The notes under the pieces: model-generated | Seen by the model: only the letters and a program-made list of their open reading frames with translations | What the model was told of the DNA's origin: nothing | The model's database searches: none | In this document: one piece after another, positions 32,349 to 49,254 of the stretch | Numbering within the stretch: position 1 is the first letter of the stretch | How the letters are laid out: each line of letters starts with the position of its first letter | Source: Gammaproteobacteria bacterium | GTDB taxonomy: Bacteria; Pseudomonadota; Gammaproteobacteria; Steroidobacterales; Woeseiaceae | Length of the DNA stretch: 64,000 bases | Assembly (NCBI GenBank): GCA_024640305.1 | Contig: JAHEFG010000009.1 | Location: 1 to 64,000, forward strand | Direction of reading: 5' to 3' | Position numbers and translations under genes: made by a program

Positions 32349-32732
32349 CTAGTCGGCCGGTGTTGTTGGTGGGGCGTACGGGTTGGGCGGCATAAGGTCC
32401 GGCGGAATAGCCGCACGACGCCGGTCTTCCTGCGGCGGATAGTTATCAGCCAGGTATGTAGTGATTCTGGATTCGGTGTCAGGGTCGAATTGCCACAGGT
32501 TTTGTTTTTCCTGCATCCAGCGAATCAGTTTCAACCAGTGATTCTTGGAGCCCCGCTGTTGAGTAATCAACTTGGGCGAATGACAGGAAATACAGTTGTT
32601 GCGCACGAGTTCCCAGTCGCCGGTCATTTTCAATCCGCTGAAAGCGTCAAGCGCCGGTTCTTGGGCTACAGCAGTAGCGGTGAGGGCACAGGCGCTGGCC
32701 ACCATCAGCAGCCGTCTTGCCTGGTGTTTCAT
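32349..32732 (-). CDS. monohaem cytochrome c, sulfite dehydrogenase small subunit (SorB-like)
   Basis: A 127-residue periplasmic c-type cytochrome with a signal peptide (1-23). The single haem motif is CISCH near residue 47. The gene overlaps the large-subunit stop/start by one base and ends next to a convergent thioesterase gene. In SorAB enzymes this subunit takes electrons from the molybdenum subunit to the respiratory chain. SoxD would be larger with two haem sites, so SorB-type is the better match. The distal haem ligand is probably a Met in the second half, not verified. Confidence 0.82.
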   Translation of the reverse strand: MKHQARRLLMVASACALTATAVAQEPALDAFSGLKMTGDWELVRNNCISCHSPKLITQQRGSKNHWLKLIRWMQEKQNLWQFDPDTESRITTYLADNYPPQEDRRRAAIPPDLMPPNPYAPPTTPAD

Positions 32733-34048
32733 CAGGCTACCTGCAAAGCAATACGGTGGCAGGCATTGTTCAGATAACCCTTTGGATTCCAGCCCGGCAA
32801 GACCATAGGTTGGGATCTTCCGGCAGTGTCAGTGGCGCGCACCCAGACTTCATAGTAGCCGGCTTCCGGAAACTCAACTTCAGCGCTCCAGCGCTGCCAG
32901 GCCAGGCGATTGGCCGGAGCGCTGAGCTTCGCTTTCTGCCAGGTTGCGCCAAAGTCGATGGAGACGCGAACTTTGTGAACTTCGAGGTCGCCTGCCCATG
33001 CGTGGCCGCGCAGAGCGAGTTTCTTGCCAAGTTCGTGTTGCAGGCCTGACTTCGGAAACGTGATGAGAGACTTGACTGGCATCGACTCGATAATGCACAT
33101 CTCGTCTGTCGGCACTTCGCTACCGGGAGCAACTGGTTTACAGGGTACTCGGTACGACGTACCCGTCATTTTCGGTCCGTCATGCACCTGGTTACGTACG
33201 ACTATCTTCCGGAGCCACTTGCCACATACAGAACCGGGCCAGCCGCCGCACACGAGGCGCAACGGGTAGCCATTCATTGGCGGAATATCTTCACCGTTCA
33301 TTGCCCAGGCGATGAGCGTTTCGTCTTCGAGCGCCTTGGCAACCGGTACGCCACGAGAGATTGGCACCTTGTTCGGGTCGCTGCTGACGTGCTTGTCCGC
33401 GCCGTAGTAGGCAACATACACGGCGTCGTCATTAATGCCGACGTGCTCGAGCACATCCTTCAAGCGGACCCCCGTCCATGACGGGCAACCGACAGCACCG
33501 ATAGACCATTGGTTGCCTGCTGCCGGCGGTACAAATTCGCTACGGCCATTGCCGCCGCATTCAAGTTGCAGTTGATACGTGTAGTGCTTGAATTTCTTTT
33601 TGAGCTCGGCGGCTGTAAAAGACATCGTGCGAGTGGCTGACTCCCCGCCGATCTCGACTGTCCACGCGTCGGGGTCAATGTCGGTGGTTATCGGTGGCGT
33701 GCCATTATTGCGAACGAATAGATACTTCGCCGGAGTTACCTCGTCATCGAGAAGGTGTGCCGGCGTTTCGGCATTCACCGGCCGATCGTTCAGCACGATC
33801 AGGCCTTCTTTACCTGGAATCTCGAATGGCTGTGAAGTCTGTGCTATAGCAGCTGGAATCAGGCCGCCGGGCATAAGATGCGCAAATGGAATCGATGCTC
33901 CAACCGCAGTCGACATTGCGACCAGGCCGCCTTTGGTCAAAAAGCCACGTCGTGTTATCGGATCAACGCTGCGCCCCCACACCAGGTCGTCTGCTGTGGA
34001 TGGATCCTTGCCGTACAACTCATGAATTCCGCGCTTCTTGTCTGACAT
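32732..34048 (-). CDS. molybdopterin sulfite dehydrogenase catalytic subunit (SorA/SoxC-like)
   Basis: A 438-residue protein. A twin-arginine signal (TRRGFLTKG, R33-R34) sends it folded to the periplasm. A sulfite-oxidase-type molybdopterin domain follows; Cys164 in LECGGNGR is the Mo ligand. Residues 330-438 form the dimerisation domain ending in VLPGWNPKGYLNN. It oxidises sulfite to sulfate and passes electrons to the SorB-like cytochrome. GGAGG precedes ATG 34048. Because the sHdr pathway makes sulfite in the cytoplasm and this enzyme is periplasmic, an exporter is required. Confidence 0.87.
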   Translation of the reverse strand: MSDKKRGIHELYGKDPSTADDLVWGRSVDPITRRGFLTKGGLVAMSTAVGASIPFAHLMPGGLIPAAIAQTSQPFEIPGKEGLIVLNDRPVNAETPAHLLDDEVTPAKYLFVRNNGTPPITTDIDPDAWTVEIGGESATRTMSFTAAELKKKFKHYTYQLQLECGGNGRSEFVPPAAGNQWSIGAVGCPSWTGVRLKDVLEHVGINDDAVYVAYYGADKHVSSDPNKVPISRGVPVAKALEDETLIAWAMNGEDIPPMNGYPLRLVCGGWPGSVCGKWLRKIVVRNQVHDGPKMTGTSYRVPCKPVAPGSEVPTDEMCIIESMPVKSLITFPKSGLQHELGKKLALRGHAWAGDLEVHKVRVSIDFGATWQKAKLSAPANRLAWQRWSAEVEFPEAGYYEVWVRATDTAGRSQPMVLPGWNPKGYLNNACHRIALQVA

Positions 34049-34124: not shown

Positions 34125-34355
34125 CTACGATGCCGTGTGCTTGATCAGGAAACGATAAATCTTGTCATCGACCGAATGTTCTACAAGCTCATTGCCCGTT
34201 TGACGGCAAAAGGCCTCGAAGTCTGCGACCGAGCCGGGATCTGTTGCCAGGATTTCCAGCGTACCGCCGGCAGGTACTTCTTTGAGGGCTTTTCGAGCCT
34301 TGAGGATAGGCAGCGGGCAATTGAGCCCCTTTGCGTCGAGTGTCTGGTCAGCCAT
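34125..34355 (-). CDS. tusA: TusA-family sulfur carrier protein
   Basis: A 76-residue cytoplasmic sulfurtransferase. The sulfur-carrying cysteine is in the CPLPILKARKAL motif near residue 13, the CPxP signature of TusA. In sulfur oxidisers TusA accepts sulfane sulfur and hands it to DsrE-type proteins or to the oxidising complex. It follows dsrE2 by 15 bases on the minus strand, as in the tusA-dsrE2 pairs of other sHdr loci, and faces the HDAC/LipS cluster divergently. Confidence 0.92.
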   Translation of the reverse strand: MADQTLDAKGLNCPLPILKARKALKEVPAGGTLEILATDPGSVADFEAFCRQTGNELVEHSVDDKIYRFLIKHTAS

Positions 34356-34370: not shown

Positions 34371-34859
34371 TCAAATGAATAGATTGATGTCGGCCTGCGT
34401 TGCACATTCAATATAGGTTGCAGCGCCACCGATTTCGATACCGTCGATCATATCTTCCTGGCCATACTCGAAGAGATCCATGGTCATCTGACAGCCGATC
34501 ATACGAACTTCGAGATCGACTGCTGCTTCTCGCAGGTCGTCGATTGATGCGACGCCCTTCTTCTTGATTAGGTTCTTCATCATCACGGAGCAGGCAGCGT
34601 CCACTCCAGGAATGGCCGTGACGAGATTTGGCAGGCCCATATGGCCGCCCATCATCGGCATTTTCATCGCCGGGTTGCCGGCAGCAGTGACCTGCAAATC
34701 GAGTTTCTTGAATAGCAGGGGCAAGCCGTAGAATGTAAAAAACATCGTGACCGGGAGGCCCATCGCCGCTGCGGTCGTTGCAAGAATGAACGGCGGGTAA
34801 GCCCAGTCCAGGCTACCTTTCGTAACGATGATTGACATACTTTTTTGTTCGTTGGACAT
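34371..34859 (-). CDS. DsrE2-type sulfurtransferase
   Basis: A 162-residue DsrE/F/H-like protein of the DsrE2 class. A hydrophobic stretch lies near residues 20-50 (ILATTAAAMGLPVTMFFTFYG) with a Met-rich segment after it. Conserved cysteines lie at SVMM-preceding C88 and in IGCQMTMDLF. DsrE2 proteins are partly membrane associated and take part in sulfur transfer with TusA. The start has AAGGTGAAG upstream. It opens the minus-strand operon leading to tusA, divergent from the lipoate/sHdr genes. Confidence 0.86.
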   Translation of the reverse strand: MSNEQKSMSIIVTKGSLDWAYPPFILATTAAAMGLPVTMFFTFYGLPLLFKKLDLQVTAAGNPAMKMPMMGGHMGLPNLVTAIPGVDAACSVMMKNLIKKKGVASIDDLREAAVDLEVRMIGCQMTMDLFEYGQEDMIDGIEIGGAATYIECATQADINLFI

Positions 34860-34948: not shown

Positions 34949-34996
34949 CGATCGCCGCTTTTGCCGGAACTCGGTAGTCGACTATCGTGCCATTAT

Positions 34997-36184
34997 ATGC
35001 GTCACTCGCAAGCAGAAAAATCAAAAATAGGGGGCGCGGCTACAGCGTCTGCTTCCAAACATCTGGCAACTGATCCGGCCGGGCTGAGACCTTTATTCGT
35101 TGGCAGTGATGTCTTCCGTCGCGCTGCCTTCGGTCAGAGCCACCCCCTCAAAATCGTTCGCCATGCCACTGTGCTCGACCTGGTCCGTATGCTTGGCTGG
35201 CTCGCAGACGAAGAGTTTCATACCAGCACACCAGCGACGATGGATCAACTCACCGAATTTCATGATCGGGACTACGTGGAGGCGCTGCAATACGCAGATT
35301 CCACTGGCAAGGTCGACCCGGACATCCGTTCTCGGTACCACATTGGAACGATGGAAAACCCACTGTTTCCGGGCCTGTTTGAACGAGCCGCTACGACCGT
35401 CGGCGGATCGATACTGGCGGCGCAACTGGCTTGCGAGGGTCGAGTTATATTTCATCCTTCCGGCGGTACCCATCATGGCCGTCGCGACAGGGCCAGCGGC
35501 TTCTGCTATTTCAACGACCCGGTATTTTGCATTCGAACATTGCTGCGCGAAGGGCAGCAACGAGTCTTATATCTCGATCTGGATGCTCATCATGGTGACG
35601 GCGTTGAAAATGCATTCGTTGCTGAGCCCAGAGTAATGACAGTATCGGTCCACGAAGCGGAGCGGTGGCCATACACCGGTGCAGCAGACGATCGGCGCGA
35701 CGGCGGTGCTCGCAATTTACCCGTGCCCAAAGGCGTCAACGATAGTGAACTCAAGTACTTGATGGAATACGCCATCGTGCCGCTGGTTGAATCGTTTTCG
35801 CCCGATGCATTTGTGGTTTGCTGCGGAGCGGACTGCCTCGCTGGGGATCCGCTGTCAGGCATGCTGCTCAGTAACGTCGCATTGTGGGAGACTGTCGAGC
35901 AAATAACCGCTTTGAACAAGCCTACGGTCATTCTCGGCGGGGGCGGGTACAATCCATGGACCGTGGCACGTTACTGGGCCGGCATGTGGGGGCGTCTTAC
36001 GGGGCAGGTATTTCCCGATCGCTTGCCGGACGCCGCTGTCGAACTGCTCAGGGGAATGGAATGCGACCTCGTGGATGAGGACGATATCGAGGACGATTGG
36101 CTCAATACGCTGGCTGATAAGCCATTTGCCGGGCCCGTCCGAGAGGCGATAAGATCATTGGCAACCGAAGTAACGAGGGTCTGA
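34997..36184 (+). CDS. HDAC/AcuC-like zinc deacylase in the lipoate-sHdr locus
   Basis: A 395-residue class I/II histone-deacetylase-fold enzyme. All catalytic features are present (numbering from ATG 34997): HH at 159-160, zinc ligands D196 and H198 in LDLDAHHGDG, third ligand D279 in CGADCLAGD, and the transition-state Tyr318 in GGGGYN. Bacterial relatives remove acetyl or other acyl groups from lysine (AcuC) or from small amines. It is the first gene of the plus-strand operon, 3 bases before a LipS-type gene. That suggests an acyl- or lipoyl-lysine substrate, which is not shown. A TTG start at 34961 lacks a ribosome site; 34997 is preferred with some doubt. Confidence 0.86.
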   Translation: MRHSQAEKSKIGGAATASASKHLATDPAGLRPLFVGSDVFRRAAFGQSHPLKIVRHATVLDLVRMLGWLADEEFHTSTPATMDQLTEFHDRDYVEALQYADSTGKVDPDIRSRYHIGTMENPLFPGLFERAATTVGGSILAAQLACEGRVIFHPSGGTHHGRRDRASGFCYFNDPVFCIRTLLREGQQRVLYLDLDAHHGDGVENAFVAEPRVMTVSVHEAERWPYTGAADDRRDGGARNLPVPKGVNDSELKYLMEYAIVPLVESFSPDAFVVCCGADCLAGDPLSGMLLSNVALWETVEQITALNKPTVILGGGGYNPWTVARYWAGMWGRLTGQVFPDRLPDAAVELLRGMECDLVDEDDIEDDWLNTLADKPFAGPVREAIRSLATEVTRV

Positions 36185-37265: not shown

Positions 37266-38480
37266 ATGAGTTGTTTTGAAACCAAAGGAAGCGTGGCGAT
37301 GGAGCCCCGCGCACCTATTAAAACGCCGGTTGACCGTAAGAATGGTAAACACGTAAAGGCGAATGACATACCGCCGCAAGGTGTGTATCTGCCGAATAAC
37401 AACATCCTGGCACCACACATGAAGTCACCGGAGTATGTGCAGCTGTCGACAGCTGCAGCGATTACGTTGGGAATCATGGGTGGTCGCATGCACCGCTGTG
37501 GTTGTACGCGTTGCCTGAACCTTTTGCTTACCTACCCGGAAGGCTGCAGAGCCAACTGCGCGTATTGCGGACTCGCTCGACATCGTGAAGCGGACCGTGA
37601 TTATGCCGACCGCAATTTCATTCGCGTCGACTGGCCTGCGGTGCCGATGACGGACATCATCGACATTGTTGCGAAGGATCCGGAGAACAGCCCGTTTCAT
37701 CGCATGTGCATATCGATGATCACGCACCCGCGTTCGGAGGACGATACGTTTACGGTACTGAAACAATGGACCGACAAGATAGACCCACAGGCGATCCCCG
37801 TATCAATTCTGTCGAACCCGACGACGATGACGCGCGACGACGTGCAAAAGACGAAGGATCTGGGCGCAGATATTTTCACTGTTGCCCTGGATGCCGCGAC
37901 GCCCGAGTTGTTTGATCGAACTCGTGGCAAGGGCGTGCAGTCGCCGCACAAATGGTCGAAATACTGGGACATCATGCTTGAGGCAAGGGATATCTTCGGG
38001 CCGCAAAAATTCGGCGCGCACATTATCGTCGGCATGGGCGAAACAGAGTACGAGGTGCTGCAGCTTGTGCAGGAGATCGTTGCACTGGGAGGGCACAGCC
38101 ACATGTTCTGTTTCTTCCCGGAGCAGGGCTCATTAATGGATCACTTGCCCGCGACGCCTCGCGATCAGTGGCGGCGCGTACAGCTCGCCCGATACCTTAT
38201 TGATTATCGCGATGTGCGGGTCGAGCAGATGAAGTTTGATGAGCTCGGACGGGTCACCGATTACGGTATTCCGGAGGCGGAACTCTCCGATATCGTGAAC
38301 GAAGGAATCGCATTTCGCACCTCCGGCTGCCCCGGTAAGTTTCAGGATGATGTTTCGGCCTGCGATCGCCCTTACGGCGATTCACCGCCAAGCGACATTG
38401 CGAGCTTTCCTTTCCAGCCAGTCAAAAAAGACATCAAGAAGATTCGCAAACAACTGGAAATACCGGTCCGCGTGGAATAG
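37266..38480 (+). CDS. radical SAM protein, lipoate sulfur insertion (LipS1/LipS2-type, COG2516-like)
   Basis: A 404-residue radical SAM enzyme. The canonical cluster motif is C94-x3-C98-x2-C101 (EGCRANCAYCGLA). An extra N-terminal set C78/C80/C83 (RCGCTRC) and C-terminal cysteines (GCPGKF and SACDRP) could bind the auxiliary cluster that donates sulfur. Partner of the preceding radical SAM protein in the two-enzyme lipoyl synthase. ATG 37266 (CAGGGA upstream) and ATG 37299 (AAAGGAAG upstream) are both plausible starts; a longer frame from 37179 overlaps the preceding gene. Confidence 0.8.
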   Translation: MSCFETKGSVAMEPRAPIKTPVDRKNGKHVKANDIPPQGVYLPNNNILAPHMKSPEYVQLSTAAAITLGIMGGRMHRCGCTRCLNLLLTYPEGCRANCAYCGLARHREADRDYADRNFIRVDWPAVPMTDIIDIVAKDPENSPFHRMCISMITHPRSEDDTFTVLKQWTDKIDPQAIPVSILSNPTTMTRDDVQKTKDLGADIFTVALDAATPELFDRTRGKGVQSPHKWSKYWDIMLEARDIFGPQKFGAHIIVGMGETEYEVLQLVQEIVALGGHSHMFCFFPEQGSLMDHLPATPRDQWRRVQLARYLIDYRDVRVEQMKFDELGRVTDYGIPEAELSDIVNEGIAFRTSGCPGKFQDDVSACDRPYGDSPPSDIASFPFQPVKKDIKKIRKQLEIPVRVE

Positions 38481-38501: not shown

Positions 38502-39584
38502 ATGGCAGATACGTTTCGAATCATCGATACGGGCGTGCGTGAAGGTCGCGCAAACATCGCTTTTGATGCTGCTCTTATCGAAGAACGGCAGGCAAACCGC
38601 GTTCCCGATACGATTCGATTCCTGCGTTTTCCACCGACGGCATTAATCGGGCGGCACCAGGATTTAAGCAGGGAGGTTAATCTCGACTACTGCAAAGAAA
38701 ATGACGTTGGTGTTGTCCGGCGCATTACCGGCGGCGGCGCCATCTATCTCGATGAGGGCCAGCTGGGGTGGGAGCTGGTCTTTCACCGCGCGTCGCTGGG
38801 TATTCCGGCGCTGCCCGATCTTGCGAGAGAAATATGCAACGCAGCTGCAAACGGGTTGAGCCAACTAGGTATCAATGCGCAGTTTCGCCCACGCAACGAT
38901 ATCGAAGTCGATGGCCGAAAAATTAGTGGTACGGGCGGCTTCTTCGACGGCGACACACTCATTTACCAGGGGACAGTGCTCGTAGACATGAGCGCACAGA
39001 AAATGGTCAAAGTACTTAATGTTCCCGAGGGCAAACTTGCAAAACGCAAACTCGACTCTGCGGCGGAGCGGGTTGTCACCCTGAAAGAGCTACTCGGTGA
39101 TCAGCTTCCGGATATAGAGACGATCAAACAGGCTTTGACAACGGGGTTCACCGAGGCATTCGGCATAAAAGCCGAACCGGGAGAAATAACAGCCAATGAA
39201 GAGGAACTCGCAGAGCAATACTTCAGAGAAGAAATTGGCACGGATGAGTTTGTCGCGGAGATCGATAACCCGGGTGGCGCAGATGAGGTCCTTAGCGGCT
39301 CGCACACCGGGCCCGGCGGCACGATCGAGTCCTTTGTGAAGCTCGAGGGAGCCACAAAGAGTATCTTGCAGCGCGTTTTGATTAGCGGTGATTTCTTCGT
39401 CACCCCGCCGCGCGTTGTGTTCGATCTCGAGGCGCACTTGCTGGGCACGCGGGTTGATGAAATCGGCTCGGCTATCGAAGATTTCTTTATTAACAATGAC
39501 GTCGACATGCTGAGTGTTGCGCCGTCTGATTTTGCGGCATCCATAACGGCGGCGCTGACATCCGGAGAAGCGGCTAATGTCTGA
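38502..39584 (+). CDS. slpl(AB): two-domain lipoate:protein ligase, sLpl(AB)-type
   Basis: A 360-residue ligase with an LplA-like catalytic domain (1-250) and an LplB-like C-terminal domain (about 260-350) in one chain. Catalytic motifs: R73-R-I-T-G-G-G79 and the acyl-accepting K140 in GRKISGTGG. The sLpl(AB) group attaches octanoate or lipoate to LbpA in sHdr organisms and is distinct from the LplA serving pyruvate dehydrogenase. It stands between the two radical SAM genes and gat, overlapping gat by 8 bases. Confidence 0.87.
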   Translation: MADTFRIIDTGVREGRANIAFDAALIEERQANRVPDTIRFLRFPPTALIGRHQDLSREVNLDYCKENDVGVVRRITGGGAIYLDEGQLGWELVFHRASLGIPALPDLAREICNAAANGLSQLGINAQFRPRNDIEVDGRKISGTGGFFDGDTLIYQGTVLVDMSAQKMVKVLNVPEGKLAKRKLDSAAERVVTLKELLGDQLPDIETIKQALTTGFTEAFGIKAEPGEITANEEELAEQYFREEIGTDEFVAEIDNPGGADEVLSGSHTGPGGTIESFVKLEGATKSILQRVLISGDFFVTPPRVVFDLEAHLLGTRVDEIGSAIEDFFINNDVDMLSVAPSDFAASITAALTSGEAANV

Positions 39585-40362
39585 TTGCAGCCCTGACGCA
39601 TTCGTACTGGCGGACAGGGGTGATACGCCGATGAACGTCGTAGCTGTTATTCAGCACACGTCAGGAGAATACCTCGGCCTGATGGAAGATCACCTCGAAG
39701 GGCGGCGCATTCGATTTCAGTATTACCGCCCGTTTGCCAGCGGTGGCAAATTGCCGGCGGAAGATCTGCCGGCCGACGCTGTCATTTTGCTTGGTGGCGG
39801 GCCATGGGGTTCGGCCGGCGGCCGGGATTTGCCAACCCTGGCCGCAGAGATAGAGCTGACGAAAGCTCGACTTGATGAAGGGACACCGGTTATCGGTATA
39901 GGCGTCGGTGCTCAGATTCTCGCCATCGCGGCCGGCGGTTCGGTGCAAAGCACGGAACTCGAGTTTGAGTGCGGTATGGCGAGGAGAATCTGTGATGACG
40001 CCCTGAATGGCTTTCTGCCCGAAGAATTTGAGCAAGTCACCTATATGCGTGACCGCCCGGTGCCCCCGGATGACGCCCGGATCCTGGCCGTTGACGAAGC
40101 GGGCCGCCCGGCTGTTTTTCAGATTGGTTCGGGCGACGGCAGCAGTTCGTTCGGATTTGTAGGCAATCCGGGCATCAAGGTCGGCATGGTCGAAGACCTG
40201 ATCATGGAGTTCGAGGAAGTGCCTGCCGGAGTAGCTGAACAACTTGAAATATTGCGCTCGCTACAGACACGTCTTGAAGACAGTCTGGTTCCAATTATGA
40301 CAGGGCTGGTACAATGTACAGCGCTGATGTCAACACCAAAGGCTGCGAAAAATGCCGGGTGA
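39577..40362 (+). CDS. gat: Gat-type class I amidotransferase-like protein lacking the nucleophilic Cys
   Basis: A 261-residue class I glutamine-amidotransferase fold: oxyanion segment LLGGGPWGSAGG near 71-82 and a nucleophile-elbow region GIGVGAQILA at 107-116. In active enzymes this elbow reads GxCxGxQ; here the Cys position (109) is Gly. So it is probably not a glutaminase. Gat genes are regular members of the sHdr-lipoate locus, but their role is unknown. It overlaps sLpl(AB) by 8 bases. ATG 39631 is an alternative start 18 residues in. The operon probably ends here, as a promoter follows. Confidence 0.75.
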   Translation: MSDCSPDAFVLADRGDTPMNVVAVIQHTSGEYLGLMEDHLEGRRIRFQYYRPFASGGKLPAEDLPADAVILLGGGPWGSAGGRDLPTLAAEIELTKARLDEGTPVIGIGVGAQILAIAAGGSVQSTELEFECGMARRICDDALNGFLPEEFEQVTYMRDRPVPPDDARILAVDEAGRPAVFQIGSGDGSSSFGFVGNPGIKVGMVEDLIMEFEEVPAGVAEQLEILRSLQTRLEDSLVPIMTGLVQCTALMSTPKAAKNAG

Positions 40363-40839: not shown

Positions 40840-41583
40840 ATGTCTCACTCATCGACGTCTCGAATTCAGGAATATATCGGCGACCCTCTGTCGGATGAGG
40901 CACCGGTAGATCGTGGCAAACTCGAAGAGATATTTCAGGATATTCAGGGCGATCTTCGGTTCGACCATGAACTGAACGGATGTCTGAATTGCGGCATTTG
41001 CACAGCAACTTGCCCGGCGGCGCACTATTACGATTTTAGTCCACGCGAGATAGTCCAGCTGCTTTGGACCGAAAATCTTGACGGCATATATGACGCGATG
41101 CAGGAAAAGATCTGGTCCTGTGCGCAGTGTTATACCTGTGCCGCCCGCTGTCCATTCGGCAACTCTCCAGGTGGCCTGGTTATGATAATGCGCGAGACCG
41201 CTATCAAACACGGCATGGAGTCCGCCAAGAGCGTTTTGCGCCCGTTTAGCCGCGTTATGCTCAAACTCATATCAACGGGCAATCAACTTTCACCCGACAT
41301 GATTAACCCGGAAGGCTTTGCTGACTGGGGGCCGAATATTTCAAAGGTTGACGCGCCGCTTGAAACACTGCGCAAAGCAATACCGATGCCTACGCTACAC
41401 ACCACGAAGACGGCGTGGGAAGTGAATTTAAAAACGTCTGTCGAGCTCTACACTATTTGGGAAGAAACCGGTGTGCTCGACAGTCTGGAAGTAATAGACG
41501 AGAACCTGTTTGACGTTATCAGCGACATCATGGATGAGAAACGCGATGACTACGAAGACTGGCTCGACGATCAGGACGACTAG
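40840..41583 (+). CDS. hdrC1: sHdrC1, Fe-S subunit of the sulfur-oxidising heterodisulfide reductase-like complex
   Basis: A 247-residue protein with two 4Fe-4S motifs: C48-x2-C51-x2-C54-x3-C58 and C94-x2-C97-x2-C100-x3-C104. The C-terminal 90 residues are acidic, ending in DDQDD. HdrC subunits carry electrons between HdrB and HdrA. It is nine bases after dsrE3 and nine before hdrB1. The order C1-B1-A-hyp-C2-B2 is that of the sHdr complexes of Hyphomicrobium and Thioalkalivibrio. Confidence 0.9.
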   Translation: MSHSSTSRIQEYIGDPLSDEAPVDRGKLEEIFQDIQGDLRFDHELNGCLNCGICTATCPAAHYYDFSPREIVQLLWTENLDGIYDAMQEKIWSCAQCYTCAARCPFGNSPGGLVMIMRETAIKHGMESAKSVLRPFSRVMLKLISTGNQLSPDMINPEGFADWGPNISKVDAPLETLRKAIPMPTLHTTKTAWEVNLKTSVELYTIWEETGVLDSLEVIDENLFDVISDIMDEKRDDYEDWLDDQDD

Positions 41584-41592
41584 GAGGCTCGA

Positions 41593-42945
41593 ATGGCGAC
41601 AGGCAACGGAAACGACGGGGAACGATTTACAGGTCACGGCAGCGAATGGTCGGACGCAAACCTGAGCAAGGACGAGGCTCATGTTGCGACCGTTTGGGTT
41701 GATCAAATTGTTAACCGACGATCGATGCTGACTAACAAGGACCGAGTCGAGGATGTCCGCGACGTCATGTGGGATCTTGAGAAAGACGGCGAGATCATCG
41801 TTCATCGGGTTAAGGATGAACACGAGCCGGTTACGGTCAATACGCTTTATGGTTGGGAAAAGAAAATTCCAACGCAGCAGTTGTGGCATCACAAGTCCTG
41901 CGGTCAGTGCGGCAATATTCCGGGTTACCCGGCATCTCTGTTGTGGCTAATGAACCAGATGGACATTCGCTATCTGGACGAGACCGATCAGACATCCTGT
42001 ACGGCATGGAATTATCACGGCTCGGGTATTGGCAACATTGAAAGTCTCGCCGCAGTTTTCTTGCGTAATTTCCACCAGGCGTATGTTTCCGCGAAGGCGC
42101 AGGGACTGCCGGACGGATATTTCTATCCGCTGGTGCATTGCGGCACGTCTTTCGGCAACTATAAAGAAGTGCGTGGGTACCTGTTGCAGTCGGCGAAGCT
42201 CCGCGCCAGCGTCAAGAAAATTCTTGGTAAGCTGGGTCGATTGGTCGATGGCAAGCTGCTTATTCCGGAAGAGGTTGTGCATTACTCGGAATGGCTGCAT
42301 GTCATGCGCGACAAGATCGCGGAAAGGCAAGTCATCGATTGCAGCCACATTCGGGCCACTGTCCACCCGGCATGTCACGTCTACAAAATGGTTCCTGAAG
42401 ACGCCATCTATGACGACAAAATTCTTGGTGGCAACCGCGTTGCGGTGACGACCGGCGTTCTTGAGGCACTCGGTACGCAGGTCATCGATTATCGTACCTG
42501 GTACGACTGCTGTGGCTTCGGTTTTCGCCATATTATCTCCGAGCGAGAGTTCACTCGATCATTTGCGATCGATCGCAAGTTACGTGTGGCGCAGGAAGAG
42601 GCAAGGGCGGATATGATGATCGGTCACGACACCGGCTGTATCACAACTCTCGACAAGAATCAGTGGATCGGTGCGGCGGGCGGTAAGCCCGTTGACTTGC
42701 CGGTTCTTGCGGACTGCCAGTTTGCGGCACTGGTTTGTGGGGCACACCCGTACAAGATAGTGCAGTCGCATTGGCATGCTTCGTCAACGGAAACGCTGAT
42801 GGAGAAACTGGGCATCGACTGGCAAGCTAAAAAGGCGGAGTTCGAGGCCTATCTTAAGGACGTGGAAGCCGGTAAGGGTGAGAGTCTTTATGATCCTAGA
42901 AAGATGATCACTTCGGGCCCGGGATTCAAACAGATCGAAAAATAA
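41593..42945 (+). CDS. hdrB1: sHdrB1, CCG-domain-like subunit of sHdr
   Basis: A 450-residue subunit, longer than sHdrB2. The first cysteine site (KSCGQCGNIPGYPAS near 102-116) and later ones (HCGTSFG, WYDCCGFGF, GHDTGC, LVCGAHP) form the modified cysteine-rich core of HdrB1. It is expected to hold a noncubane 4Fe-4S cluster; I cannot assign every ligand. The CCG motifs are less regular than in B2. In HdrB proteins this cluster site is where disulfide or persulfide chemistry occurs. Adjacent to hdrC1 and hdrA on one transcript. Confidence 0.88.
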   Translation: MATGNGNDGERFTGHGSEWSDANLSKDEAHVATVWVDQIVNRRSMLTNKDRVEDVRDVMWDLEKDGEIIVHRVKDEHEPVTVNTLYGWEKKIPTQQLWHHKSCGQCGNIPGYPASLLWLMNQMDIRYLDETDQTSCTAWNYHGSGIGNIESLAAVFLRNFHQAYVSAKAQGLPDGYFYPLVHCGTSFGNYKEVRGYLLQSAKLRASVKKILGKLGRLVDGKLLIPEEVVHYSEWLHVMRDKIAERQVIDCSHIRATVHPACHVYKMVPEDAIYDDKILGGNRVAVTTGVLEALGTQVIDYRTWYDCCGFGFRHIISEREFTRSFAIDRKLRVAQEEARADMMIGHDTGCITTLDKNQWIGAAGGKPVDLPVLADCQFAALVCGAHPYKIVQSHWHASSTETLMEKLGIDWQAKKAEFEAYLKDVEAGKGESLYDPRKMITSGPGFKQIEK

Positions 42946-42964
42946 TACAGATCGAGCGATAAGA

Positions 42965-44014
42965 ATGAGCAAACCAATTTTGATCGTAGGTGGCGGACCT
43001 GCTGGCCTGGCCGCGGCGCATAGCCTCGGCTCCATCGGTAGATCCAGTATTCTGGTTGAGAAAGAAGGCGAGTTGGGTGGAGCACCGATATTGTCGGGCT
43101 ACGCGAAACTCGTGCCGACGGGCGAGTGGGCCAAGGACGCAATCGGCGGCATGGTAAAACGTGTTGTCGACGACAGTTCGGTTCGGGTTCAGACTGGAGC
43201 GACAGTCACATCGTTCGATGGCGAGCCCGGCAACTTTAAGGTCGAGCTGTCCAATGGCGACAAGCACGAAGTCGAAGCGGCCATCCTCTGCAGCGGGTTC
43301 ACACATTTCGATTCCGTGAATAAGCCCGAATGGGGGTTTGGCACATTTCCTGACGTCGTTACGACGACCCAGGTCGAGCAGATGATTTCGTCAGGCGGTG
43401 GCGTTCGATGCCCGTCAGATAAACGTAAGCCAAAACGCGTCGCCATCTTGCTGTGTGTTGGCTCGAGAGACAGACAGATAGGCAGGGAATGGTGCTCCAA
43501 GATTTGTTGCACTGTCTCGTCGAATATTGCCATGGAAATTCGTGAAGAATTACCGGACTGTCATGTCTATATCTACTACATGGACATTCGCACATTCGGG
43601 CTTTATGAGACCAAGTACTACTGGCGCAGCCAGGAGGAATTCAAGGTCAAGTACATCAAGGCCAGAATCGCCGAGGTGACGTCTGATGGCGATAAGTTGA
43701 TCGTCAAAGGTGAAGACACACTGGTCAAGCGGCCGATTACGATTCCGTTTGACATGGTGGTGCACGCCGTGGGCATGGATCCAAATGTCGATAACCCTGA
43801 TATCGCCGCGACATTCGGCATTGACCTGGAAGAACACGGCTACGTCGGCGTTGCAAATCGCTACGGTGCAATGGGCGCGACATCCCGGCCGGGCGTCTAT
43901 GTTGCGGGATCTGCGACGGGTCCGGAGACCATCGACGACTCGATTGCGCAAGGTCACGCCACAGCGATGGCAGTGCTTACAGATTTGAAACAGCCTGTCG
44001 GCGAAACCGCGTAA
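42965..44014 (+). CDS. hdrA: sHdrA, FAD-binding subunit of sHdr
   Basis: A 349-residue flavoprotein. FAD-binding motif VGGGPAGLAAA at 8-18, a second dinucleotide-contact region, and YVAGSATGPETIDDS near the C-terminus. A cysteine cluster (LLCVGSRDRQIGREWCSKICC near 158-178) matches the HdrA Fe-S region. It is shorter than methanogen HdrA. It probably forms the core to which B and C subunits attach, though the electron acceptor is not known. GAGCGATAAG precedes ATG 42965. Confidence 0.9.
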   Translation: MSKPILIVGGGPAGLAAAHSLGSIGRSSILVEKEGELGGAPILSGYAKLVPTGEWAKDAIGGMVKRVVDDSSVRVQTGATVTSFDGEPGNFKVELSNGDKHEVEAAILCSGFTHFDSVNKPEWGFGTFPDVVTTTQVEQMISSGGGVRCPSDKRKPKRVAILLCVGSRDRQIGREWCSKICCTVSSNIAMEIREELPDCHVYIYYMDIRTFGLYETKYYWRSQEEFKVKYIKARIAEVTSDGDKLIVKGEDTLVKRPITIPFDMVVHAVGMDPNVDNPDIAATFGIDLEEHGYVGVANRYGAMGATSRPGVYVAGSATGPETIDDSIAQGHATAMAVLTDLKQPVGETA

Positions 44015-44025
44015 GGCCGCAGGTT

Positions 44026-44883
44026 ATGGCCCGCGCAAAATCTCTGCAGCCAGCCGGCATAGAACGGCCCGTGCTCGAGTTGTCGGGTGAGTTACTGCAA
44101 AAGTCTCTGCAGACGATGATCGTAGGCAGTGAAAGCCATGGCGGCATAGAAGCTTATGTCGAGGCCGTTAAGCTGAAAAGCGTAATGTTCAAGCAAGCGC
44201 TTGCCGACGACGCTCTCGATGGTCTCGAACTCGAGACTTTCAAGGGTCTTTGCACTTTTATGGCGACTGTTCGGCGGCGTGTCGGTCCCTGGCTCAATGA
44301 AGAATCATTTGCCGAGCTGAAGGTCGGTATCGGAGACTTGCTCGTCGACGACAGCGATATTGACGCGCGTATTGCAAATTTCTGCGATCGCTTTCCACAG
44401 GACAAGAAACACCGCTGGGTTCGCGATCTTGCAACTGAACTGCTGCATAACCTTGATCCCGAACGCGTACCGCTAATGAACCGGTGGATCTGGGATGCGA
44501 AAGCAAATACCGGTGTTATTCGCGAAATCTGGTTCTCGGATGACATCGATCACCTGACTATTCCGGTTGGTGATAGCTATGGTACGTACCTGATGTTGCG
44601 TGAGGAGCTTAGCCAGTTTCTAAGTGACAACGGTTTCTTCCGTGATGTGCTGGAATACGTCGACATCATTTCTGCCCAGGTTTATGCGAATTACATTTGC
44701 GAGCAGGGTGGTAGTTATTTACGCACCGACTTTTCTGCACCGGAAGACCCGATGCAGCACACACGGCGGCTGCTGGGGTTGGACGGCGTCCGACCCGGTA
44801 ACGGCAAGACCCGCCTGAAATCGATTGATGGTGAGGCCTACGTCCTCGATGACACTGACTTGTTGACCCAGGCGACGAACTAA
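44026..44883 (+). CDS. sHdr-cluster conserved protein (Hyp)
   Basis: A 285-residue protein found between hdrA and hdrC2, the position of the conserved hypothetical gene (hyp) of sHdr operons. It is mainly helical and lacks Fe-S cysteine motifs (only isolated Cys). The coding ends directly at hdrC2 (adjacent codons), so the genes are tightly coupled. Its location between subunits suggests it is a structural part or assembly factor. I know no catalytic function. Confidence 0.75.
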   Translation: MARAKSLQPAGIERPVLELSGELLQKSLQTMIVGSESHGGIEAYVEAVKLKSVMFKQALADDALDGLELETFKGLCTFMATVRRRVGPWLNEESFAELKVGIGDLLVDDSDIDARIANFCDRFPQDKKHRWVRDLATELLHNLDPERVPLMNRWIWDAKANTGVIREIWFSDDIDHLTIPVGDSYGTYLMLREELSQFLSDNGFFRDVLEYVDIISAQVYANYICEQGGSYLRTDFSAPEDPMQHTRRLLGLDGVRPGNGKTRLKSIDGEAYVLDDTDLLTQATN

Positions 44884-45651
44884 ATGCCCATTCACGAAAA
44901 ATCATTGATCCGCCCCGAGAATTTAAAGACTCACGACGAGCTGATTCTCGATGGTGTGGATGTGTCCGGCCACTGGAGCACGTTTATCGAAACGCGCGTG
45001 GTTTCCGATTATAACGAGGCTATTGAAGAGGAAATTGCGGCGCTTCCGGGTGGAGAAAATATACATCGCTGCTGGCAATGCGGATCCTGTACCAACTCGT
45101 GCACGGTCAATGCAATTAATCCGGAGTTCAACCCGCGCTATTGGATTTACCTGATACGCATGGGTATGGAATCGGAACTTCTCCGTGACAAAGACATTAT
45201 CTGGCAGTGTGTCTCATGCAATAAGTGCACCTACGCCTGTCCGCGTGACGTGTTCCCGGAAGGTGTCATGAAGGCGACATCGCATTGGTTGGAACGCAAA
45301 GGGCACACGCCGAAATCACCTTCCATGCATTTCGACGAGGTCTTCACCGAGCAGATTTTGAAGACTGGCAAGATCGAAGAAAGCAGAACGATAAGGCGAT
45401 TTTTCAAGCGCACCAGCCAGGGACTGATGCAGCCATGGATGATCGAGATGGTTAAACGCTTGTTGAAGAACCTGCCGGTTGGCATGCTGACACGCATGGG
45501 CATCGCGACCTTCGTGGCGCCGCGAACGAGCAACTGGTCTGGCGCATCAAGCGCGATCCAGGAATACATCGACGAGCAGCATCAGAAGCAGGAAGAGTTA
45601 CTGAATCTTTCTGAGTTGATCGACATCGCACAAAAAGACGCGGCGGCCTAA
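44884..45651 (+). CDS. hdrC2: sHdrC2, Fe-S subunit of sHdr
   Basis: A 255-residue protein with two 4Fe-4S motifs: CWQCGSCTNSC near 60-70 (the usual fourth-site Pro is lost, CTVNA follows) and CVSCNKCTYACP near 105-116. It is the second HdrC of the cluster, pairing with HdrB2. It begins at the first base after the hyp stop, so translation is coupled. Electron path from B2 to the rest of the complex. Confidence 0.9.
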   Translation: MPIHEKSLIRPENLKTHDELILDGVDVSGHWSTFIETRVVSDYNEAIEEEIAALPGGENIHRCWQCGSCTNSCTVNAINPEFNPRYWIYLIRMGMESELLRDKDIIWQCVSCNKCTYACPRDVFPEGVMKATSHWLERKGHTPKSPSMHFDEVFTEQILKTGKIEESRTIRRFFKRTSQGLMQPWMIEMVKRLLKNLPVGMLTRMGIATFVAPRTSNWSGASSAIQEYIDEQHQKQEELLNLSELIDIAQKDAAA

Positions 45652-45674
45652 AGAGTTCTGAGGAAAAAGCAGCA

Positions 45675-46607
45675 ATGACGAAGAAAGACAAATACAAGAA
45701 GGTCGCCTACTACCCGGGCTGCGCGCTCGAAGGAACTGGCCACGCCTACAACCGTTCGACCAAGGCGGTTGGCAAGAAGCTGGGGCTCGATCTCGTCGAG
45801 GTCGAGAACTGGAACTGCTGTGGTGCGATGGAGGTCAAGAACGTAGACCCGAAAATACAGACCTACCTGTCGTCAAGAGTGATGTCGACCGCGGCCAACG
45901 AAATGAATATGGACGTTGTCATGGCGCCATGTAACGGCTGCTATCACAACCTCAAGAAAGCCGAGTACGACCTGAAGAACGACACGGAGTCGGTTGACGT
46001 CGTTGATCGCTTGTCGAAAAAAGCGGGCCACAAGACTTATGAATCGGGCCAGGTAGAGACCATTCACGCTCTCGATTGGATAAAAGAAACGATCGGTGAA
46101 GACGGTCTTAGAGAGCGTGTAAAGAACTCGCTCAGCGGCATCAAAATTGCTAACTACTACGGCTGCATGTACACACGACCACGACATATCTTTCCTGAGA
46201 AAGACGCCGGACCGGGTAGCGAGTCGACATCGAAGCCGCATTTCATGGACGACTTGCTGGAGGCAGCGGGCGCAGAAAATGTCGACTTCCCGCTGAAGAC
46301 CGCGTGTTGTGGTGGCGCGCATACGTTGTCCGATAGCGACACCTCAACGAAGCTGGTGCTCAATATCCTGAAGACTGCCAAGTTGGCTGGTGCCGATGTC
46401 ATCGCCACAGAATGCCCAACTTGTCACTCCGGTCTCGAGATGCACCAGATTCGTGCCGAAAAGACACTGGGCGAGGTGGTCGACATTAAAATTCTGTATT
46501 TCACACAATTGCTCGGCATGGCATTGGGGCTCAAAGCAAAGAAAGTCGGCGTGCACGAGAATATCTCTAATTCCATCGGTTTCCTTAAGGAGAAAGGGCT
46601 CGGATGA
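45675..46607 (+). CDS. hdrB2: sHdrB2, two-CCG-domain subunit of sHdr
   Basis: A 310-residue protein with two complete CCG motifs: C16, C48-C49, C86-x2-C89 (spacing 31 and 36) and C164, C211-C212, C247-x2-C250. In HdrB, these bind two noncubane 4Fe-4S clusters that cleave or form disulfides. This intact pair makes B2 the best candidate for the catalytic site acting with lipoyl-LbpA. GAGGAAAAAGCAGCA lies before ATG 45675. Its stop overlaps the start of the next small gene. Confidence 0.91.
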   Translation: MTKKDKYKKVAYYPGCALEGTGHAYNRSTKAVGKKLGLDLVEVENWNCCGAMEVKNVDPKIQTYLSSRVMSTAANEMNMDVVMAPCNGCYHNLKKAEYDLKNDTESVDVVDRLSKKAGHKTYESGQVETIHALDWIKETIGEDGLRERVKNSLSGIKIANYYGCMYTRPRHIFPEKDAGPGSESTSKPHFMDDLLEAAGAENVDFPLKTACCGGAHTLSDSDTSTKLVLNILKTAKLAGADVIATECPTCHSGLEMHQIRAEKTLGEVVDIKILYFTQLLGMALGLKAKKVGVHENISNSIGFLKEKGLG

Positions 46608-47047
46608 TGTCGCTGGCTGCAATCGAGTCAGCCATTCAGTCGATATCGGCAGAGCCAGACGCGAGCGCGTCTGCCAGCGAATTGCTCAAGCTTAGCGAAG
46701 CTGTAATTGAGCATTGGATCGTTGCGCGAGGCGAAAAGCCAACCGATGAGAAGCGCGAAGGTTTTCGACTGCTGGCGCTGCATCGCCAGGGCGCCAAGGG
46801 CGATCCGAGTTTTAATGCTTGCCGCGAGACCTGCCGGGAGGTGGTTTACCACTATAATCTCATCACGATGCAGGCGGACGATTCGGAAATTACCAATCGC
46901 CTTGATATGATGAAGATGATATCTAGTCATTTATTTTTGTTTATCAGCGGCAAGATGCAAGTCGCTGAGTTGGGGGAGTTTTGCTGTTCGGCAAAACCGA
47001 TCCGTTTATCGTCAGATTTAGAAACAGGAACAGCAAAGGAGCCCTAG
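46604..47047 (+). CDS. small protein of the sHdr operon, unknown function
   Basis: A 147-residue helical protein. Cysteines occur in NACRETCREVVYHYN (CxxxC near 73-77) and in GEFCCSAK near 125. It overlaps hdrB2 by 4 bases and ends two bases before lbpA, so it is inside the operon. I do not recognise a family. Position suggests a role in sHdr or LbpA function, for example assembly or binding of a metal or sulfur species via the cysteines. Confidence 0.65.
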   Translation: MMSLAAIESAIQSISAEPDASASASELLKLSEAVIEHWIVARGEKPTDEKREGFRLLALHRQGAKGDPSFNACRETCREVVYHYNLITMQADDSEITNRLDMMKMISSHLFLFISGKMQVAELGEFCCSAKPIRLSSDLETGTAKEP

Positions 47048-47049
47048 CG

Positions 47050-47490
47050 ATGCCAGTTGTACGCGGATGTAATATGCCCGACGAGCTTCTGTACGACGTC
47101 GATAACCATATCTGGTTTCAGGAGTTAGGCGACGGCAGCGTAAAAGTCGGAATGACGACGGTGGCCACAGCAATGGCCGGTAAATTGGTTGCTTTTACAC
47201 CCAAGCGCGTGGGCAGATCTGTGCGAGCCGGCAAGTCATGCGGAACGCTGGAATCCGGCAAGTGGGTCGGCCCGGCCAAGTCTGCGGCGGGGGGCGAGGT
47301 TATGGCAGTTAATGATGACATGGTCGCCAACCCCAGCATTGCCAACGACGATCCCTATAACGCCGGCTGGCTGGTCGTATTAAAGCCCGATGATTGGGGC
47401 TCTGTCGTCAGTACACTACTGACAGGCGACGCTGTTACCGCACCTTACGAAGCCAAGATGGATTCGGAAGGGTTCGCTGGTTGCGAATAG
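47050..47490 (+). CDS. lbpA: lipoate-binding protein LbpA (GcvH-like)
   Basis: A 146-residue protein of the glycine-cleavage H-protein fold, found only in sHdr loci in this form. K71 in TLESGKWVG aligns with the lipoylated lysine of H-protein (ESVKA). It is the swinging arm that presents dihydrolipoate-bound sulfur to sHdr. AAAGGAG precedes ATG 47050; a longer frame from 46981 overlaps the preceding gene and is not favoured. The dedicated LipS1/LipS2-type enzymes and sLpl(AB) upstream lipoylate it. Confidence 0.92.
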   Translation: MPVVRGCNMPDELLYDVDNHIWFQELGDGSVKVGMTTVATAMAGKLVAFTPKRVGRSVRAGKSCGTLESGKWVGPAKSAAGGEVMAVNDDMVANPSIANDDPYNAGWLVVLKPDDWGSVVSTLLTGDAVTAPYEAKMDSEGFAGCE

Positions 47491-47513: not shown

Positions 47514-47864
47514 ATGAATGCACCGCAAAGCGTCGAGGCCGCAGTGGCTTCTGAGAAGTTTAACGAGTTACACGGCATGGCGGCGCAGGCTTGCGAGTTG
47601 CTAAAAGCCATGGCTAACGAGTGGCGCCTGATGATTCTCTGTCAGTTGTCAGAAGGTGAAAAAACCGTAAGTGAGTTGCAGAGCCTGCTTGGCCTAAGTC
47701 AGTCAGCGCTGTCGCAACACCTGGCAATACTACGGCGGGAGAAGATTGTCCGATCAAGAAAACATGCCCAGTCTGTGAGTTATTCATTGACTGGCGACGA
47801 TGCGAACAAAGTAATGGAGTCGCTCCATGATGTGTTTTGCGGAGCAGCATCCTCACAGGAGTAA
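47514..47864 (+). CDS. ArsR-family repressor, sHdrR-like
   Basis: A 116-residue winged-helix regulator (recognition helix SQSALSQHLAILRREK near 62-77). Cysteines C27, C43 and C109 are present. C43 and C109 are 66 residues apart, the spacing I recall for the paired cysteines of Hyphomicrobium sHdrR, which senses oxidised sulfur through a thiol switch. It lies 23 bases after lbpA and 4 bases before the FadL gene. Its probable sites are the dyads at 34903-34948 and 40382-40395. Confidence 0.8.
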   Translation: MNAPQSVEAAVASEKFNELHGMAAQACELLKAMANEWRLMILCQLSEGEKTVSELQSLLGLSQSALSQHLAILRREKIVRSRKHAQSVSYSLTGDDANKVMESLHDVFCGAASSQE

Positions 47865-47868
47865 ATAA

Positions 47869-49254
47869 ATGAAGACCAAAAACGTAAATGCCACAGCCTG
47901 GGTTTCGGCTCTTGGACTACTGGCGATAAGCGGTGCTGCGACAGCTACCAATGGCTATTTCACGCACGGCGTCGGTACCGAGTCCAAGGGGATGGCCGGT
48001 ACGGGTGTCGGCTCTAACGCCGCACGCGGGTCGATCATTGTCGCCTCGAATCCTGCCCTTGGCGTATTTGCAGATGACAGCTGGGAGGTCGGTCTGTCCA
48101 TATTTAGTCCGATGCGAGACTATGAAGCGGATGCCGGATATCAAGGTAACTTCGGCGCATTTTCGACAGGTGCCGGTAAGTTTGAGAGCAGCAGCGAAAC
48201 GTTTCCGATTCCATACGTTGCCAAGAATTGGCGCCTGGGCGACGACATGGCAATGACGTTTGTGTTTTACGGTCGCGGCGGAATGAACACAGATTGGGAC
48301 GATCCGAATACAGTCGCGTATTTCGATCCCACCGGAGCAGGTGGACCCGGTCAGGAGTTTCCAGGCTTGTTCGGTGCCGGTGATGCAGGTGTCGATTTGT
48401 CCCAGGCATTTATAGCACTCAATTTCGCGGGCAAATCGGGCGATAATTTCGCCTGGGGCATTGGCCCGGTCGTCGCAGTCCAGATGTTCGAAGCGAATGG
48501 GCTGGCTAACTTTGCACCGTATACCAAGACGTATATCGAAGAGTTTTTTGCTACCGGTACGCCGGGCAATCCAACATCTCTGACCAATAATGGGCACGAC
48601 ACCTCGACAGGTTACGGAGCCGCTGCAGGTATCTGGTGGGCGATGGGGGACGCAGTGAGTGCTGGTCTTTCTTATCAAACGAAGATGTCGATGAGCGAGT
48701 TGGATGACTACTCGGATCTTTTCGCTGAAGCTGGTGGATTCGATATTCCGGCAAGCACGAAGTTCGGCATATCGTTTAAAGGGAGCAACAACGTTCGCCT
48801 TAACGTCGACATCGAGCACACAGAGTTCAGCGACGTCGCGTCAGTTGGTAATGCGATGATCAACTTCCTCGACTGCCCGAGCCTGGGTGGTGCGGACTTT
48901 GAATCGTGTCTGGGTGGCAAGAACGGGCCTGGTTTCGGCTGGGAAGACATGACGACTTACAAGTTCGGCATTGAATGGACGCCTTCCGATACGACGTCCT
49001 ATCGATTTGGTTACAGCTACGGCGAGCAGCCAATTCAGGAAGCTGACGTATTGTTCAATATTCTGGCGCCTGGTGTCATGGAGCAACACATCACGTTCGG
49101 AATGACCAAGAGGAAGCCTGATGGTGGCGCATGGAATTTCATGCTGATGTATGCCCCTACGAACACGGTTGAGGGCATCAGCCTGTTCGATCCTGGTCAG
49201 ACGGTCGAGCTGAAAATGAGCCAGTTTGAGTTTGAGGTTTCCTATCTCTGGTAA
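47869..49254 (+). CDS. FadL/OmpP1-family outer-membrane transporter
   Basis: A 461-residue protein with a signal peptide (1-26, ending ATATN) and the family's N-terminal TNGYFTHGVGTESKGMAGTG hatch motif (first 20 residues of the mature chain), then a beta barrel ending in SYLW. FadL proteins let hydrophobic molecules through the outer membrane. Placed four bases after the sHdrR-like gene, in the sulfur operon, so it may import hydrophobic sulfur compounds. The substrate is unknown. Confidence 0.83.
   Translation: MKTKNVNATAWVSALGLLAISGAATATNGYFTHGVGTESKGMAGTGVGSNAARGSIIVASNPALGVFADDSWEVGLSIFSPMRDYEADAGYQGNFGAFSTGAGKFESSSETFPIPYVAKNWRLGDDMAMTFVFYGRGGMNTDWDDPNTVAYFDPTGAGGPGQEFPGLFGAGDAGVDLSQAFIALNFAGKSGDNFAWGIGPVVAVQMFEANGLANFAPYTKTYIEEFFATGTPGNPTSLTNNGHDTSTGYGAAAGIWWAMGDAVSAGLSYQTKMSMSELDDYSDLFAEAGGFDIPASTKFGISFKGSNNVRLNVDIEHTEFSDVASVGNAMINFLDCPSLGGADFESCLGGKNGPGFGWEDMTTYKFGIEWTPSDTTSYRFGYSYGEQPIQEADVLFNILAPGVMEQHITFGMTKRKPDGGAWNFMLMYAPTNTVEGISLFDPGQTVELKMSQFEFEVSYLW

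Follow-up and report, generated by a model that had tools for sequence, protein, structure and literature searches.

An intact HDLP-type zinc HDAC gene is a conserved accessory of the sLpl-LipS1/S2 lipoate-assembly module

To our knowledge, zinc HDACs are widespread in bacteria and few of them have a known substrate. The HDLP of Aquifex aeolicus (PDB 1c3p/1c3r) reportedly provided a bacterial HDAC structure in 1999. It carries, like the HDAC described here, a Glu at the position of HDAC8-Asp101 and the motif GGGGY. Its host lineage, the Aquificae, is credited with group I hdr-lbpA clusters in a passage of PMC6067878. AcuC of Bacillus and the AcuC-type HDACs of proteobacteria belong to the same Pfam family as the present protein, with the same catalytic residues and the same kind of pocket motif. 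Removal of a lipoyl group from lysine, a reaction akin to that proposed below, is attributed in part of PMC5596343 to the lipoamidases CobB/SrtN; these are NAD-dependent sirtuins of a different fold, whereas the present protein is of the zinc-HDAC type.

The assembly of lipoate on LbpA by sLpl(AB) and LipS1/S2 is treated in the main texts of PMC10332631 and PMC6067878. The same module, together with sHdr genes, was found in the 64,000-nucleotide stretch of DNA analyzed here (the window), and the HDAC gene that accompanies it is an addition to the module as those main texts describe it. The term "deacetylase" is absent from the main texts of PMC10332631, PMC6067878 and PMC12423496, though a published cluster drawing may show the gene without a name. 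Among the matches listed from the open-access literature, no title joined sHdr or LipS1 with an HDAC, and open-access searches demanding the two subjects together found no paper. The features of the locus are as follows.

34137..34355, minus strand: matched stretch of a TusA-like sulfur carrier, divergent from the HDAC gene (73% identical in tblastn to the TusA-like protein of a related locus, over 73 aa)
34371..34859, minus strand: DsrE2 sulfur carrier, divergent neighbour of the HDAC gene (NF047629, 213.8 bits, above the cut-off of 210)
34997..36184, plus strand: HDAC/HDLP-type zinc deacylase, predicted from PF00850 (233 bits), the best PDB match 1c3r and the catalytic residues
36188..37225, plus strand: LipS1 lipoyl synthase subunit (NF053742, 7.6e-58, 196 bits against a curated cut-off of 230)
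37266..38480, plus strand: LipS2 lipoyl synthase subunit (NF053743, 5.4e-55, 187 bits against a curated cut-off of 270)
38502..39584, plus strand: sLpl(AB)-type lipoate-protein ligase (PF21948, 2.4e-48; sub-threshold NCBIfam matches to lipoyltrans, 157 bits, and LplB, 50.5 bits)
39577..40362, plus strand: class I glutamine amidotransferase (GAT), LipX-like (PF00117, 2e-5; the name LipX is used in a passage of PMC10332631)
40453..40830, plus strand: DsrE-like protein (PF13686, 4.7e-13)
40840..46607, plus strand: sHdr genes C1, B1, A, Hyp, C2 and B2 (ORFs, order and conservation in related loci)
47050..47490, plus strand: LbpA, lipoate-binding protein (PF01597 GCV_H, 1.9e-29)
47514..47864, plus strand: ArsR-type regulator, sHdrR-like (PF01022, 8.1e-15; NF040642 BigR, 84 bits, below its cut-off)
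47869..49254, plus strand: FadL/LipY-like outer-membrane protein (many related loci have a homologous ORF next to HDAC-DsrE2)

The sHdr genes were named by analogy to the order hdrC1B1A-hyp-hdrC2B2 given in part of PMC6067878, and the label FadL/LipY-like reflects resemblance, the name LipY coming from a passage of PMC10332631. By hand count, K71 of LbpA is the lysine of the ESGK motif. The HDAC gene ends with TGA 36182-36184, three bases ahead of the lipS1 ATG at 36188, as the preliminary description had noted. That description also had the HDAC open the lipoate/sHdr operon: its membership in the operon is supported, and the divergent orientation of the upstream dsrE2-tusA pair suggests that it comes first in the transcript. 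A scan for consensus promoters upstream of the HDAC gene found none, against a mean of 1.2 in shuffled sequences. Between the sHdr genes and lbpA, a 147-aa ORF (46604-47047) has no Pfam or NCBIfam match; a homologue (27–36% identity) occurs in the HDAC cassette of classical gammaproteobacteria presented below. Near the sHdr locus, and in related loci too, an oxidoreductase with molybdopterin-binding and Mo-co dimerisation domains (32732-34048, minus strand; PF00174, PF03404) is possibly a sulfite dehydrogenase.

The ORF 34997-36184 (plus strand) encodes 395 residues counted from ATG 34997. Residues 49–331 match PF00850 Hist_deacetyl (4.8e-69, 233 bits, cut-off 27.9), and the residues listed in the preliminary description for a complete HDAC/AcuC-like enzyme were all correct: the HH dyad (H159, H160), the Asp-His-Asp zinc ligands (D196, H198, D279) and the catalytic tyrosine (Y318). 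With this set, the protein is a complete, intact classical zinc HDAC, with predicted zinc-dependent deacylase activity. Its best solved relative by sequence is the Aquifex HDLP (1c3r; 1e-67, 232 bits), followed by HDAC8. An AlphaFold2 model (mean pLDDT 89.6) had 1c3r as its top PDB fold match (TM 0.88/0.93, 32% identity), which places the modelled protein in the arginase-deacetylase fold. Since residues 1–28 have a pLDDT below 50 and the alignment of many homologues begins only around residue 31, the real start codon may lie downstream of ATG 34997; an in-frame TTG is present upstream, at 34961. Two further PF00850 proteins are encoded in the same genome, both on contig C12.

Homologous loci were collected from one-per-species genome contigs. 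The best 80 of 337 homologous stretches (52–90% identity) were retained and then searched with the lip/sHdr proteins of the window; nearly all are metagenome-assembled genomes (MAGs) of alpha-, beta- and gammaproteobacteria, and the similarity ranking makes the set lean toward the relatives of the window. LipS1 was present in 69 of these best 80 loci. In 66 of the 69 the HDAC gene precedes lipS1 on a common strand, and in 64 the two genes share the strand with a gap below 300 bp (median 47.5 bp). A divergent dsrE2 lies upstream of the HDAC gene in 50 of the 70 loci of this set with at least 1.5 kb of upstream sequence. The order survives rearrangement: L187 and L188 have the lip operon turned around with respect to sHdr, and the HDAC gene remains upstream of lipS1. 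Chance proximity in one genome was rejected on the strength of this linkage. Two of the records, L103 (HDAC-lipS1 at a contig edge) and L115 (lip/sHdr locus), are MAGs titled "Bordetella parapertussis"; their loci resemble those of environmental betaproteobacteria and the records are probably mislabelled.

The 11 loci lacking a LipS1 call are heterogeneous. LipS1 is truncated in L081, lipS2 and slpl are present in L083, L093 and L098 stop no more than 230 bp from a contig edge, and the divergent dsrE2 is still there in L101, L117 and L119. Neither a lip-type nor a dsrE2 neighbour was seen at the locus in L088, L090, L096 and L118. When the genomes of seven of the 11 were searched, LipS1 was found elsewhere in five, and none was found in those of L090 and L118. 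The L118 assembly may be incomplete, as a piece of sHdrB1 sits at a contig end.

Co-occurrence was examined in samples of genomes at three taxonomic depths. In the order sample (147 genomes), LipS1 was found in nine, the HDAC family in nine (at least 440 bits, next best 151) and both in eight, G066 having LipS1 only and G134 the HDAC only. In the phylum sample (398 genomes), LipS1 was found in eight and the HDAC (at least 338 bits) in 25; the two genes were adjacent on one strand in all seven shared genomes, and 18 genomes held an HDAC relative without LipS1. In the gammaproteobacterial sample (94 genomes), all four genomes with the HDAC (at least 273 bits, next best 147) were among the six with LipS1, the latter count being combined from the LipS1 searches of other samples covering the same 94 genomes. 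With the own genome excluded and the bit threshold placed at the gap in each list, Fisher P values for LipS1 against the HDAC family, which are inflated by shared ancestry, were 2.6e-10, 1.7e-7 and 7.7e-5, respectively. Over four samples, leaving out genomes reached via an HDAC match, 38 of 48 distinct LipS1-containing genomes carried the family, 18 each with a copy of the A or the B kind and two with a C-like one, as defined below. The C-like copies (G551, G756) are unlinked to lipS1 and are the sole family members there. The family was not found in the other 10 of the 48 (G066, G147, G722, G872 and six classical gammaproteobacteria: G927, G937, G1061, G1069, G1148 and G1189, two of which are only 72 and 81% complete); the HDAC is therefore dispensable for LipS1-containing genomes. 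Among 72,556 plasmid records, LipS1 gave no match at E 1e-30, and the HDAC matched four Roseobacter-group records at an E limit of 1e-60 (43–46% identity).

By conserved adjacency and co-occurrence beyond chance, the HDAC is a regular component of lipS1/S2 loci, and an accessory one since the family is present in 38 of 48 LipS1-containing genomes. The preliminary description, which did not recall such a gene as a regular part of sHdr loci, is contradicted by that count; the first ground that it named for refutation, a linkage confined to this genome, does not apply, as LipS1 accompanies the HDAC in 69 of the best 80 of 337 loci, across alpha-, beta- and gammaproteobacterial records. Its reading is partly supported: the intact HDAC in a lipoate operon and the linkage stand, the pocket motif is of the open kind, and the tie to sHdr is not strict. 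Removal of octanoyl, lipoyl or acetyl groups from LbpA K71 would be possible, whether as an erasing step of a cycle or in repair, recycling or regulation. In L105 (Pinisolibacter aquiterrae), L106 and L186, the HDAC, lipS1, lipS2 and slpl genes lie together with dsrE and lbpA nearby, and the corresponding genomes (G1242, G1243 and G524) yielded no sHdrB1 homologue at E ≤ 1e-15. Because these three genomes keep the HDAC, lip genes and lbpA in this way, the association is with lipoate assembly and LbpA, not strictly with sHdr, and the HDAC was rejected as a strict sHdr component. The absence of sHdr is judged from sHdrB1 alone, which was detected in five of the 11 genomes searched; G756, G545 and G134 also gave no match.

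Stretches of note in these loci, where LbpA accompanies a complete set of lip genes in a genome with no sHdrB1 match, are L105 17893-19035, L186 14392-19998 and L106 16960-17909. Pfam identified a [NiFe]-hydrogenase small subunit adjoining the cluster in L105 and L186; in L186 it also identified the large subunit, the maturation protease and an iron-sulfur protein. LbpA may serve a hydrogenase-linked system in loci of this type.

A looser arrangement was observed in classical gammaproteobacteria. Among 24 such genomes with a LipS1 of 45–53% identity, 18 have an HDAC (39–44% identity, 249–313 bits). It shares a contig with lipS1 in nine of the 18, at a distance of about 8–31 kb, lies about 205 kb (G911) and about 744 kb (G1234) away in two, and on another contig in seven. 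In 11 of the 18 loci it follows or adjoins genes for a CbbQ/NorQ-type ATPase and an 840-aa protein with a VWA domain (Pfam). The surroundings also encode a second ligase-like protein (25% identical to sLpl; PF21948, 79 bits in L263), a protein resembling the ORF 46604-47047 of the window, and an aldo/keto reductase. The ligase-like protein, CbbQ/NorQ-type ATPase, VWA protein, HDAC and aldo/keto reductase form a conserved cassette, as in L263 (8472-16957), L270 (2281-11500) and similar loci.

Phylogenetic relationships were examined with two midpoint-rooted trees. For the FastTree phylogeny, six duplicate loci were dropped and nine more of 183 loci held no HDAC match; a length filter removed no protein. 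Group A comprises 93 HDACs: 80 with LipS1 in the same locus (69 from the 80-locus set, that of the window and 10 found by other searches) and 13 others. As its support as a clade was low (0.206, and 0.054 in the second tree), A may be a grade rather than a clade. Next to A is a clade made up of C and D with the G551 and G756 copies, mostly from alphaproteobacteria without LipS1. The union A+C+D has a support of 0.999 and is followed by the classical gammaproteobacterial clade B (1.0). The 32 paralogues that are here labelled AcuC-type, all proteobacterial, are separate from the A/B/C family (0.996). The HDAC of the window lies outside their clade and was rejected as a strict AcuC orthologue, Bacillus AcuC not being in the tree. 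In the second tree, which includes 21 of the 80 A proteins, the partial HDLP sequence joins A+B+C (0.996) as the sister of B (0.914), apart from the AcuC-type paralogues and HDAC8. HDLP also shares AGGMHH with clade B, and differs by its long branch.

The catalytic residues and the GGGGY motif are kept in all 93 A and all 18 B proteins. The position aligned with HDAC8-Asp101 (120 in the window protein), an acidic residue which we take to hold peptide backbones, is Glu in 93/93 A and 18/18 B proteins, and Asp in 32/32 AcuC-type paralogues, which differ from the window protein in this respect. In clade C (18 proteins from LipS1-free genomes) it is Ser in ten, Gly in five, Asp in two and Thr in one; it is Gly in the three D copies and the G756 copy, and Glu in the G551 copy. 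The position of HDAC8-M274 and HDAC10-E274, presumably that of the gatekeeper Glu of polyamine deacetylases, is occupied by Leu (Leu286) in 93/93 A proteins, and an acetylpolyamine deacetylase was rejected on this ground.

Residues 155–160 read xGGTHH in 93/93 A proteins (SGGTHH in the window) and AGGMHH in 18/18 B proteins. A passage of Graf et al. 2024 (PMC11532494) states that RPPXHH closes the foot pocket to all but acetate and that GGGXHH with GGGY opens it to longer chains. The VcHdaH of that passage (SGGYHH), whose first letter departs from GGGXHH as does that of the window protein, held decanoate; it removed decanoyl groups only weakly, and one peptide was demyristoylated by RPP-type enzymes too (PMC11532494, same part). 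With SGGTHH and GGGGY, the window HDAC is predicted, from the motif only, to be of the long-chain-capable kind. Such an open-type motif allows octanoyl or lipoyl removal and does not prove it. Nor is it diagnostic, as IGGLHH is found in 12 of the 32 AcuC-type paralogues and I/VAGLHH in 20.

The sLpl-LipS1/S2 lipoate-assembly module thus includes, as a conserved accessory, the gene for an intact HDLP-type zinc HDAC. The conservation of the family beside lipS1 points to this module as its substrate area, and suggests that the lipoate system of many sulfur oxidisers includes an enzyme that removes acyl groups besides those that add them. It is proposed, with a probability somewhat short of even, that the HDAC hydrolyses an N6-acyl-lysine made by, or interfering with, the module, most likely at K71 of LbpA, in an editing or recycling role. 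The enzyme would strip octanoyl or lipoyl, or wrong or chemically added acyl groups, from the LbpA lysine, which would then be open to (re)lipoylation. Freed octanoate or lipoate could be re-used by sLpl, which accepts only the free acids according to part of PMC10332631. Water and zinc would do what the NAD-dependent CobB does in E. coli; as a lipoamidase, CobB offers a precedent for enzymatic removal (PMC5596343, in part). A section of PMC10272112 reports that the human HDAC1, 2, 3, 6, 8 and 10 bind reduced lipoic acid and lipoamide, so that such a zinc site is accessible to a lipoyl group, albeit one acting as an inhibitor. Since 10 of the 48 LipS1-containing genomes do without the gene, repair or recycling is a better fit than a step that the lipoyl cycle requires. 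If LbpA is its target, the HDAC would extend the sLpl-LipS1/S2 pathway by one step, constitute a zinc-dependent counterpart of the sirtuin lipoamidases and give a lead on the role of the Aquifex HDLP. The narrower form of the proposal, a putative dedicated zinc-HDAC lipoamidase or octanoyl-amidase that makes LbpA lipoylation reversible and has in the Aquifex HDLP a relative with a lipoate-linked job, is considered rather unlikely. The work presented in parts of PMC6067878 and PMC10332631 already draws on LbpA, sLpl and the genetics of Hyphomicrobium.

The best-surviving alternative, doubtful to a similar degree as that narrower form, is an AcuC-like lysine deacetylase switching on an enzyme of the module, most likely sLpl. 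AcuC reactivates the AMP-forming AcsA by deacetylating a C-terminal lysine and has XGGxHH/GGGY motifs, according to part of PMC11532494; the window HDAC shares these and the fold class, and sLpl is likewise an adenylating enzyme. A gene for a GNAT acetyltransferase adjoins that of one LipS1-free relative, carried by a plasmid of Roseobacter litoralis. However, no acetyltransferase was noticed as a regular neighbour in the lip-linked loci, and the AcuC-type paralogues, of which several of these genomes encode one besides the present HDAC, fall in a clade of their own. Covariation of distance matrices over 31 loci, LbpA not being included, singled out no partner: the partial correlation with the HDAC was highest for sLpl (0.41), barely above the DsrE-like protein (0.39), and reached 0.33 for LipS2, 0.32 for GAT and 0.31 for B1.

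Action on a small molecule is improbable. Octanoate or lipoate would be freed from non-protein amides, such as lipoamide, lipoyl-lysine left by protein degradation or imported acyl-amides, to feed sLpl. Leu286 at the presumed gatekeeper position argues against this, as does the Glu kept in A and B at the position presumed to hold peptide backbones. In its favour are the FadL/LipY-like gene often found near the HDAC, the requirement of sLpl for free acids (PMC10332631, in part) and the polyamine deacylases that a passage of PMC11532494 counts among the bacterial members of the superfamily.

Least probable is a general deacetylase travelling as a passenger of the cluster with no role in lipoylation: the family is absent from 10 of 48 LipS1-containing genomes, the HDAC occurs with no LipS1 match in the L118, L090 and G134 genomes, and related proteins lie beside varied genes in LipS1-free alphaproteobacteria, but adjacency holds across the three proteobacterial groups and through rearrangements, the catalytic residues are kept in 93/93 proteins, and LipS1 is still present in five of the seven genomes of the 80-locus set in which an unlinked copy was looked for.

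No common function was found in the gene contexts of the LipS1-free alphaproteobacterial clade, where neighbours include DUF1178, DUF192, NDUS4 and NMT1-type proteins (Pfam) as well as NUDIX- and SDR-like proteins (by eye). G712, G799 and G870 (L285-L287) possess a second HDAC copy (42–44% identity) beside NMT1-type ABC genes and apparent multi-subunit antiporter or hydrogenase genes (by eye). In G114 and G134 (L039, L040), the only family copies adjoin an apparent group 4 hydrogenase cluster, also identified by eye.
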